64,000 nt of DNA from an uncultured Prochlorococcus sp. (lineage in GTDB: Bacteria; Cyanobacteriota; Cyanobacteriia; PCC-6307; Cyanobiaceae): positions 20,922-84,921 of the forward strand of contig CACAXN010000002.1 of assembly GCA_902536455.1 (NCBI GenBank). The letters are read 5' to 3'. The notes beneath the pieces were generated by a model. It did not search any database. It had not been told where the DNA came from and worked only from the letters and a program-made list of their open reading frames with translations. Numbering within the stretch: the first letter of the stretch is position 1; every line of letters begins with the position of its first letter. Made by a program: the position numbers and the translations under genes. This document shows, in pieces, positions 20,014-23,519 of the stretch.

Positions 20014-20355
20014 ATGGTTTTTAGGCCTCAAAATACAAAGTTTCAAATTAAAATTGTTGATAACATTAAAACCTTAAGTATTTGGGCTAATAATCCATGG
20101 AGAAGATATTCGATTTCTTTAATAATTCTGTTAATTGGTTATTTTTTAGGAAGTTCTCTTGGAATGGTTAGTGCTGTAGTTGAGCTAATGGATCCAATAG
20201 GTGCTTTTTTGTCAGTCGTTTTTATTGAAATTTTGATATTTCTCAGGAGAAATTTTAGATTTGAAAAAAATAAGAGATTTTTATTACTTTTAGTAGATTC
20301 TTTGAGATTAGGATTATTTTATGGATTCTTTACTGAAAGTCTCAAGTTACTTTAA
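20014..20355 (+). CDS. DUF565/Ycf20-like membrane protein
   Basis: [24 protein letters not shown]... [13 protein letters not shown] resembles Ycf20. Confidence 0.7.
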
Positions 20356-21373
20356 ATTTATTTATTGTGTTTCGTAATAGATAAAGTAAAGCCATTCTTA
20401 TTGGAATACCATTAGAAACTTGATTATTTATTAAGCAATTAGGATATTCATCTACTACTTTACTACTGATTTCAATATCTCTATTAATTGGTCCTGGATG
20501 AAGAATTGGAATTTCTTTACTATTCAAAGATAATTTCTCTGGCGTTAAGCCATAATCCAAACTGTAGGAATCAATATTGTTTAGTAAATTCTCCATCATT
20601 CTTTCTTTCTGGAGCCTTAAAACAATAATTGCATCTGCAACTTTTATTGATTCTTCCAACGATCTAGAAATTGTTATTGAGCCTCTTGATTTAACAGGAT
20701 CTGTTAATTGATTTGGAGCAGGTTTTTTTAAAAAGTTGTTAAATTCATCAGAAATTAATGTTTTTGGTCCACATAAGATTATGTCTGCGCCAAATGCACT
20801 CAAAGCCCAAAGATTTGATCTTGCAACCCTTGAATGATTAACATCTCCCACTATTAATATTTTCTTGGAATTTAAAATCTCTGGATTCAGCGATTTTTTA
20901 GAAAAGAATTTTACCAATGTAAAGAGATCCAGCAATCCTTGGCTGGGGTGACTATGTAATCCATCTCCTGCATTGAGAACTGCAGTTTTTGAATTTATTG
21001 AATCAAGTTTTTTAGCGATTTCAAAAGTTATGTAACTCGATGAATGTCTTATAATTAAGATATCTGCACCCATAGAAGAATAAGTAATCGCTGTATCAAT
21101 AATAGTTTCGCCTTTCGTTAAAGAACTAGAGGATGGAGCAAAGGTTTGTACATCTGCAGAAAGTCTTTTTGCTGCAAGTTCGAAGCTATTTTTTGTTCTT
21201 GTACTAGCCTCAAAAAACAAAGATGTTACCAAAGTACCCTGTAAGGCAGGTATCTTTTTCGTACCCTCATTTTTGAGTGCATCAAATCTTTTAGCTAATT
21301 CAAGTACTGATTTGTAATCTTCAATTGAAAAATTAGCAAGTGAGTGGATATGTTTATGAGGCCAAATTTGCAT
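20342..21373 (-). CDS. pyrB: Aspartate carbamoyltransferase catalytic subunit
   Basis: [24 protein letters not shown] motifs. Confidence 0.97.
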
Positions 21374-21394: not shown

Positions 21395-21979
21395 TTAGTT
21401 GAATTTAGGTGTTCTATCACCTTTTGCTCTTTTACTAACACTCCTGCTGTTTTTGAGATACCAACGCCATTTTATATTTTTTGCCTTGGATATGCCAATT
21501 CTCGTAGTTTGAATAATATCTTTTTCTTCTGGAATTGTGGCTCTTGGAGAAATCCACAAAGAATCATTATTGAGAACTTCAAGAGTATTAAATGAAATAT
21601 CTACACCGAATGTCTTTGTAACTAGCCCAGGCCCAGAAGCTAATCTTTCATTATTTTTATGGATAAAAACCGCTCTTATTAATACACCACTTGCAAAATT
21701 TTCTTTATAAGTAACTATGTTTAAACAATGATGTATGCCATAAGATTTGTAAATATAAAATGTCCCAGGTTTGCCAAATAATGATTGATTTGATTGAGTC
21801 ATTTTGCGATGGCCATGACAGGCTTCTTCTTCCTGGGAATAAGCTTCAGTTTCGACAATAATTCCTGTAATTAAATCTTTCTTATTATTTTTTTTAGTTA
21901 GGTAACAGCCAATTAAATCTGGAGCAACAAGTTTAGAATGCCGATAAAAAAAATTTTCAGGAAATAAGTATTTTTCTAT
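21395..21979 (-). CDS. 3-methyladenine DNA glycosylase (AAG/MPG family); start codon non-canonical or uncertain
   Basis: Open frame extends upstream of the tracked ATG (21802) and encodes IEKYLFPENFFYRHSKLVAPDLIGCYLTKKNNKKDLITGIIVETEAYSQEEEACHGHRKMTQSN...; in-frame stop at 21983-21985; no ATG/GTG/TTG in between. Confidence 0.8.
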   Translation of the reverse strand: MEKYLFPENFFYRHSKLVAPDLIGCYLTKKNNKKDLITGIIVETEAYSQEEEACHGHRKMTQSNQSLFGKPGTFYIYKSYGIHHCLNIVTYKENFASGVLIRAVFIHKNNERLASGPGLVTKTFGVDISFNTLEVLNNDSLWISPRATIPEEKDIIQTTRIGISKAKNIKWRWYLKNSRSVSKRAKGDRTPKFN

Positions 21980-22153
21980 TGTTCAATGTTTATCTATTAT
22001 GATTTAAGCCGATAAAATAAATTGAAGCTATTAATTTTAAATTATATTGAAAAGATTTGATTAATAGTTTTTATATTTATATAAAATTCAAAAGATATTT
22101 GAATAAAAGTATTTTTAGTCAACTATCATAAAAGAAAGTAACAATAAGAAGGC

Positions 22154-22447
22154 ATGACAAAAATAACTAAAGATGAGGTAAAAAAAGTTGCCCACTTAGC
22201 GAGATTGGAATTGAAGGAGCATGAAATTGTTAATCATGCAGAACAATTAGAAAAAATATTGGAATACATAAATCAACTCGAAAAAATTGATACCGATAAT
22301 GTTGCCTGTACAACAAGAGCTATCGAAGTTACTAATGTATTTAGAAAAGATGAAAATAAAAATTTTGATTGTAATGAAGAACTCTTAGGATTAGGCCCGT
22401 CCAGAGAAGATAAGTTTTTTAAAGTACCAAAAATTATAAATGAATGA
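22154..22447 (+). CDS. gatC: Aspartyl/glutamyl-tRNA amidotransferase subunit C
   Basis: VKKVAHLARLEL... GatC signature. Confidence 0.93.
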   Translation: MTKITKDEVKKVAHLARLELKEHEIVNHAEQLEKILEYINQLEKIDTDNVACTTRAIEVTNVFRKDENKNFDCNEELLGLGPSREDKFFKVPKIINE

Positions 22448-22448
22448 G

Positions 22449-23519
22449 TTAATTACTACCTATAAATGTTTTATTGACAATCTTTAAGAAAAATTTTTTT
22501 ACTTTATAACTTGGATATAAGTTAATTATTTTTCTTATTTTACCCCTTCTTCTGCTATGACTCCTTACGCCTATTAGTAGATCATATATAAAGTTATAAA
22601 TGTCTCCTTTACTTTCAAATATCCCAACTCTTTGAGGGGAACCTTTTTTATCCAATAAAGGTTTAGTTTTTTCATAAGCAATTTTGTATTCAAACCAAGG
22701 AATCGAAGGCCAAAGGTGATGAATGAGATGGTAATTTTGTCCCATTATTAATAAATTCATAAATTTGCTTGGATAAACTCGAGAATTTATCCATTTATTT
22801 CTTGATCGAAATGGTCTATGGGGTAAATAATCAAAAAATATTCCTAAAGTTACTCCTACCATTAATGCTGGACCGAACCATAAGTTATATATTAAATTCA
22901 TAAAGTCAAATTTCAAACCTGCCAAGATAATTGTTATGAATATGGATCTTTCAATTCCCCATTGTAGTAATTCATATTTTCGCCATAGTTTTCTTTGAAA
23001 GAAAAATACTTCATGATAAAAAAATCTTGGAGCAATAAGCCAAATTGGACCAAAAGTACTGACAATATGATCTGGATCATTTTTTGGATGATTTACATGA
23101 ATGTGATGTTGTAAGTGTACTCTTGTAAAAACTGGGAAACTAAATCCTAAAAGAATTGCTGACCCATGTCCCATTGCTTGATTTATCCAAGGAACAGGGT
23201 GAGCCGCTTTGTGACATGCATCATGAATAACAGTACCTTCAATATGCAAAGCTAGAAAAGCAGTGGCTACTAGTAAAGGTAATGGCCAAACACCTCTATA
23301 CCACTGCCATATACTTAGAAAAGCTAGAAAATAACCCGCAAAAAATAAACCTAATGTTGGGTTCCAAAAACTTGGCGGATCTACGTAATTTTTTATCTCC
23401 TTTTGCCAATTTAATGTTTTTGAAGAATTAGTAATTTTTGTTGTATTTTTACTTGTTAGGTTGGAAATCGTTTCTATTATTCTGTAAATAATATAACTAA
23501 TATTTTTATATGATTGCAT
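22449..23519 (-). CDS. crtR: Beta-carotene hydroxylase (fatty-acid hydroxylase type)
   Basis: His boxes HDACHKAAH, HLQHHIHVN, YHLIHHLWP. Confidence 0.92.
   Translation of the reverse strand: MQSYKNISYIIYRIIETISNLTSKNTTKITNSSKTLNWQKEIKNYVDPPSFWNPTLGLFFAGYFLAFLSIWQWYRGVWPLPLLVATAFLALHIEGTVIHDACHKAAHPVPWINQAMGHGSAILLGFSFPVFTRVHLQHHIHVNHPKNDPDHIVSTFGPIWLIAPRFFYHEVFFFQRKLWRKYELLQWGIERSIFITIILAGLKFDFMNLIYNLWFGPALMVGVTLGIFFDYLPHRPFRSRNKWINSRVYPSKFMNLLIMGQNYHLIHHLWPSIPWFEYKIAYEKTKPLLDKKGSPQRVGIFESKGDIYNFIYDLLIGVRSHSRRRGKIRKIINLYPSYKVKKFFLKIVNKTFIGSN

Follow-up and report, generated by a model that had tools for sequence, protein, structure and literature searches.

A conserved AUA codon as the probable translation start of the 3-methyladenine DNA glycosylase gene in Prochlorococcus

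Weak AUU and AUA initiation codons are known from a small number of bacterial genes. In wild-type E. coli, the AUU start of infC is weak and limits expression. A translational limitation has also been reported for E. coli pcnB (Binns and Masters 2002, as cited in PMC13009471). In S. aureus, infC, ccpN and citZ start with AUA and cvfC1 with AUU; such starts give about 10% (up to 30%) of the output of AUG, and the non-canonical starts of ccpN and cvfC1 are conserved among Staphylococci (PMC13009471). Here we describe a DNA repair gene of Prochlorococcus, aag, whose start is probably a conserved AUA codon.

The window, the whole 64,000-nucleotide stretch of DNA that was analysed, belongs to an assembly of 1.0 Mb in 41 contigs that is 63% complete. 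On its minus strand, a stop-to-stop frame at 21395-21982 matches PF02245 with E=1.6e-49 over residues 11-179, covering profile positions 2-180 of 181 at 168.1 bits (curated cut-off 27), which bears out the first-pass annotation of this gene as a 3-methyladenine DNA glycosylase (AAG/MPG). Read from an AUA codon, aag occupies 21395-21979 and comprises 194 codons plus TAA. The alignment with human AAG covers both halves of the frame; VETEAY lines up with the same motif in the human structures 1f4r, 1bnk and 1ewn, and ETEAY, the next His, YG...N and the RA strand all match. The second Glu of ETEAY, encoded at 21845-21847 on the minus strand, aligns with the catalytic Glu, which we take to be E125 of human AAG, a residue whose catalytic role we regard as established. 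Judged by these matches, the ORF is an intact AAG, and we predict that its product has glycosylase activity.

The first canonical ATG of the frame (21800-21802, minus strand) is codon 61, lies inside the fold and is an implausible start. The codons for VETEAY are upstream of it, and a protein beginning there would lose the catalytic Glu, exactly as the first-pass annotation had warned. That annotation had also counted 60 codons without ATG, GTG or TTG between this ATG and the in-frame TGA at 21983-21985, and on re-reading the count is exact: the TGA, two codons upstream of the ATA, is followed by 60 open codons (ACA ATA GAA AAA TAC TTA TTT CCT GAA AAT ...), none of which is one of the three canonical starts. 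Nor is there an ORF with a canonical start that runs into aag from either of the window's other two frames, +1 and +2. Initiation at the ATA (21977-21979, minus strand) would give a protein whose N-terminus has a normal length by comparison with human AAG.

The gene is widely retained, being found in 83 of 87 near-complete Prochlorococcus genomes, and one public-genome scan returned 80 Prochlorococcus loci at 83-87% identity, with ATA at the same codon in 80/80. Pairwise comparison of the window gene with its relatives gave dN of 0.07-0.11 and dS of 0.42-0.65 (dN/dS 0.10-0.25), a pattern indicating that aag is under purifying selection and not broken. For a broader comparison, loci were anchored on the conserved FF.R....VAP.LIG block, yielding 134 distinct Prochlorococcus sequences, mostly from independent assemblies. 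In 120 of these 134 loci, the stretch from the upstream stop to the block is free of ATG, GTG and TTG, whereas a canonical codon precedes the block in 30/30 outgroup loci from cyanobacteria of other families; because this state is found in 120/134 Prochlorococcus loci and 0/30 outgroup loci, it exceeds what chance would produce. Nine codons ahead of the block, 125 loci have ATA, 4 have GTA, 2 have AAA, and ATC, ATT and TTA are found in 1 locus each. Most of the 7 loci with GTA, AAA or TTA are deep Prochlorococcus branches with a shifted site, and in the deepest (L152-L159) the site has moved to ATT or ATC at -8, or to ATA or ATC at -5. ATG appears at the start-site codon in none of the 134, though it is a single transition (A-to-G) away from ATA. 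Two loci (G244:C11:34074-34652 and G417:C12:170913-171476) carry an aag with one internal stop, TAA and TAG respectively, which may be a real loss or a sequencing error.

The pattern of constraint around the ATA was followed across the high-light-type loci (96 distinct). Beginning with the codon that follows the ATA, second positions are near-fixed and third positions vary, as in coding sequence; upstream of ATA, the frame is disrupted by stops and indels, with a stop at codon -11 in 77/96 loci (mostly TGA, some TAA) and sense codons in the others. Coding constraint begins exactly after the ATA, supporting this codon as the start. In L016, L018, L024, L063, L070 and L076, a sense codon at -11 and an in-frame ATG at -17 give a longer AAG, and these loci appear to have regained a canonical start sporadically.

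Since ATA also encodes isoleucine, the appropriate null for conservation of the site is a conserved Ile residue. Under this null, synonymous drift is expected, and three other Ile columns of the alignment do drift, whereas the site does not: ATA makes up 125/127 of the Ile codons at the site, as against 100/132, 87/114 and 34/130 in the other columns (Fisher p at most 4e-8, phylogeny ignored). A conserved internal Ile would also need a start further upstream, and the stops exclude such a start in most loci.

The first-pass annotation had treated the locus as a single odd gene and, besides AUA initiation, had offered an ATG-to-ATA lesion or an indel removing the start. The absence of a canonical start is real, but the gene is not an isolated oddity; the trait is conserved, and aag is one of a small gene set. 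A decaying aag, or a start lost by a recent lesion, indel or sequencing error, would fit the lack of a canonical start in the window and the few relatives with an internal stop (G244, G417). Against this, the same state recurs in the 120/134 distinct loci, mostly from independent assemblies, in a gene that is retained in 83/87 near-complete genomes at dN/dS 0.10-0.25 and that has ATG at the site in no sequence. Looking for ATG in orthologues, the check that the annotation itself had proposed, thus gave the opposite of what a lesion predicts; the ortholog comparison refutes decay, lesion, indel and sequencing error alike, and we give these readings almost no credence. Translation might instead begin at an upstream in-frame ATG, through readthrough of the stop or through termination followed by reinitiation at AUA. 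Such an upstream ORF can be written as ATG TTA TTA GAT AGA TAT TGA AAA ATA; among the 96 distinct high-light-type loci its ATG, at -17, is found in 67 and its stop, at -11, in 77, and the handful of loci with the longer AAG have an intact ORF from the -17 ATG. However, the -17 codon reads ATC in the window and ATA or another codon in the remaining loci, the stop may be TGA or TAA with no single conserved signal, and the upstream stretch lacks protein-type constraint. Stop readthrough is rejected on the variable identity of the stop and the poor conservation of the upstream ATG, while reinitiation would leave AUA as the start; we consider it improbable that the upstream ATG accounts for the locus in either way.

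A programmed frameshift, for example at the eight-T run within the FF codons, could also supply a canonical start by joining an upstream ORF to aag. A canonical-start ORF in frame +2 reaches this run in 68 loci, about half, but 63 of the 134, including the window, have no open alternate frame bearing a canonical start, and the codons ahead of the run are constrained in the main frame. The 63 loci without such a frame lead us to reject frameshifting at the T8 run, and programmed frameshifting of any kind seems very unlikely here. Another near-cognate codon (AUC or AUU nearby, or AAA) might serve as the start, with the ATA kept as part of an operator or RNA element that overlaps it. The letters before the ATA are indeed conserved as well, reading AAAAATAGA in Prochlorococcus and GCCACTCCC in Synechococcus, and L237 and the deepest Prochlorococcus branches suggest AUC or AUU. 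Yet no other codon of the frame is common to all loci, and constraint sets in exactly after the ATA, which makes a start at a different near-cognate codon unlikely in our judgement. Weighing these readings together, we consider it probable, from the comparative evidence, that the conserved AUA at 21979-21977, or a position no more than one or two codons from it, is where translation begins.

The aag leader is A/T-rich and conserved (21980-22030, minus strand). In an alignment of 32 diverse Prochlorococcus loci, a TAG.CT box (TANNNT, -10-like) is followed by GCTAAAAATAA..TTAGATAARTATT.AAAAATAGA. None of the 125 ATA loci has a Shine-Dalgarno motif (GGAG, GAGG, AGGA or AAGG) at -20 to -4. A structured leader RNA was rejected, as no stable fold (z=0.37) and no Rfam family were found there; a scan of the intergenic region for a sigma-70 consensus promoter found none, and the TAG.CT box was recognized by eye only. 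This box and the A/T-rich stretch would put the beginning of the transcript some 40 nt ahead of the AUA. The intergenic region is also that of the divergent neighbour gatC (22154-22447, plus strand). Downstream of aag by 21 nt lies pyrB (aspartate carbamoyltransferase; 20342-21373, minus strand), which is the next gene in 131/134 Prochlorococcus loci (median gap 21 nt); the same order is found in 49/50 testable loci of the remaining family. Thus, aag and pyrB are probably on one transcript.

Outside Prochlorococcus, 32/80 family loci, spread over 18/41 of the genera sampled, lack a canonical codon in the range of 4-40 codons from the block, and family loci without a canonical start have ATA, ATC or ATT near the expected place. 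The clearest cases are 11 Synechococcus-type loci that retain ATA at the site at 52-66% GC, even though ATA accounts for only 2/83 (2%) of the Ile codons in these ORFs; in 10/11 the context resembles GCC-AC[TGC]-CC[CT]-ATA-GCC or AGCCACTCCC-ATA-GCC. In L195, the matching codon is ATG (CCC ATG GCC ACC). L237 (genus g34) has CTA at the ATA site and then an in-frame TAG, and its start has likely moved downstream, perhaps to ATC. In a tree of 105 AAG proteins, the window AAG falls within the Prochlorococcus clade (starred), and the start trait requires at least 21 changes across the family. The lack of a canonical start is therefore near-fixed in Prochlorococcus and labile elsewhere in the family. 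Conservation across both genus and family lends good support to AUA initiation at 21979, the reading that the first-pass annotation preferred. A typical allele with Shine-Dalgarno and ATG, GGAGGTATGGAG, is present in L234 and L238, and L104 shares its end. The start region GGAGGTATGGAGGCACTACCGCTGAGT is near-identical in L104 (from its GGTATG on), L234 and L238, which represent three different genera; this common region suggests that the 5' end, or the gene itself, has been exchanged. We also considered an antisense gene start as the reason for CCCATAGCC in Synechococcus; a reverse-strand ATG is present there, but inspection by eye indicated that in several loci its frame runs for only about 5 codons, and this candidate was rejected.

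Other genes with comparable starts were sought by comparing the stop-to-stop ORFs in the first 800 kb of G012 with G033 (1.6 Mb), which gave 839 conserved non-shadow ORFs, some of them within the rRNA region. In both genomes, four real genes run for 30 or more conserved codons before a canonical codon appears: aag, and three that sequence resemblance leads us to name, presumably correctly, as a STAS-domain protein, crtR (beta-carotene hydroxylase) and a ComB-like 2-phosphosulfolactate phosphatase. The STAS gene (G012:C1:780723-781089; G033:C1 at about 909250; G000:C15:13533-13889, in the window assembly) has no canonical start for about 90 codons. In 26/26 genomes that matched a pattern with the third base left free, it shows GGAGG, nine bases and then ATA-GAAGATTT, never ATG, and would be a second Prochlorococcus AUA gene, here behind a perfect Shine-Dalgarno sequence. 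An ATC just before this ATA is a possible alternative in most genomes, but reads ACC in G033 and G072. In the window, crtR is the next gene but one to aag (22449-23519, minus strand). It has no canonical start before the fold in 59/69 distinct high-light-type loci (L002-L124); an ATT is retained in 69/69, and the codon preceding it varies (ACG, ACA, ACT and, twice, ATG). The window crtR has an in-frame ATG further upstream. Stops break up its ancestral N-terminal extension (MQSxKNISYII) in most relatives, but in the window the extension is open, with an ATG. The conserved ComB-like frame (G012:C1:569468-570233; G000:C6:58950-59681) lies behind a TATAAT-like box, opens with ATC/ATT-ATT-AAT and lacks a canonical start in both G012 and G033; the start candidate common to the loci is the ATT or the codon preceding it. 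We rejected infC as a companion AUA gene: it begins with ATG in the readable, forward-oriented loci of the family, and IF3 autoregulation is therefore not the link between these genes. That aag, crtR, the STAS gene, the ComB-like gene and others form a small regulon of marine picocyanobacteria with coordinately read AUA/AUU starts is a speculative idea that we think unlikely. If true, it would mean post-transcriptional control without dedicated regulators, for example by changes in IF3 or in the state of the ribosome when nutrient or light stress sets in.

How could such a start be used? In G033, the initiator tRNA has the usual GGG/CCC anticodon stem (three G-C pairs) and the 16S rRNA terminates with its normal CCUCC; an altered initiator tRNA or anti-Shine-Dalgarno sequence was rejected on these grounds, and nothing points to a changed decoding system. 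The ordinary initiator tRNA would then read the AUA with a third-position mismatch, a pairing of fMet-tRNA that IF3 discriminates against (compare PMC10158994). Since the leader has no Shine-Dalgarno sequence, initiation would have to rely on its unstructured A/U-rich RNA, by an S1-type or similar route; a study of MED4 discusses S1-dependent or leaderless initiation as something that Prochlorococcus might use in place of canonical ribosome-binding sites (PMC5607370). Initiation at AUA would be weak, resulting in a low and roughly constant level of the glycosylase. With a transcript common to both genes, the weak start would throttle AAG and leave PyrB unthrottled.

Selection may keep the weak start because excess AAG is mutagenic. 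Overexpression of AAG in yeast increases frameshifts in A:T homopolymers, even without catalysis (PMC5363859), and this provides a plausible reason to limit AAG in a genome whose GC content is about 30%. We infer ribosome initiation at the AUA, its weakness and selection for that weakness from sequence comparison, and the argument for dose limitation draws by analogy on the eukaryotic enzyme. We therefore propose only tentatively, with somewhat less than even confidence, that the AUA start serves to limit the dose of AAG. Several points weigh against the AUA start itself: an AUA without Shine-Dalgarno would be extremely weak by E. coli standards, the trait is labile outside Prochlorococcus, the site differs in L237 and in the deepest Prochlorococcus branches, and the conservation upstream of the ATA could mean that some of the letters are fixed by a DNA or RNA element rather than by the start codon.

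Gene finders usually accept only ATG, GTG and TTG, so that genes of this kind may be truncated or missed; a truncated AAG call would lack the catalytic Glu, and a functional repair gene would then pass for a dead one. Prochlorococcus is among the most abundant organisms on Earth, and its aag offers a testable case of selection retaining a weak start, in that one A-to-G transition would create AUG and is seen in 0/134 sequences. It also raises the questions of how AUA can work when no Shine-Dalgarno sequence precedes it, and why an A+T-rich genome should keep a repair enzyme at a low level.

In sequence, catalytic motif and length, the window AAG resembles other bacterial AAG/MPG proteins (PF02245), and it is the start codon that differs. 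Like the S. aureus genes, Prochlorococcus aag appears to be an otherwise normal gene with a non-canonical AUA start; unlike the S. aureus starts, which are directed by strong, extended Shine-Dalgarno sequences, it has no Shine-Dalgarno sequence, whereas the Prochlorococcus STAS gene has a strong one. With E. coli infC and pcnB it would have a weak AUH start in common, although theirs is AUU and not AUA. As expected of a conserved AUH gene, aag has no in-frame canonical start before the fold, and the codon itself is conserved. Conserved AUA and AUU starts are already known from infC, pcnB and S. aureus ccpN, and aag would be a further case of this kind.
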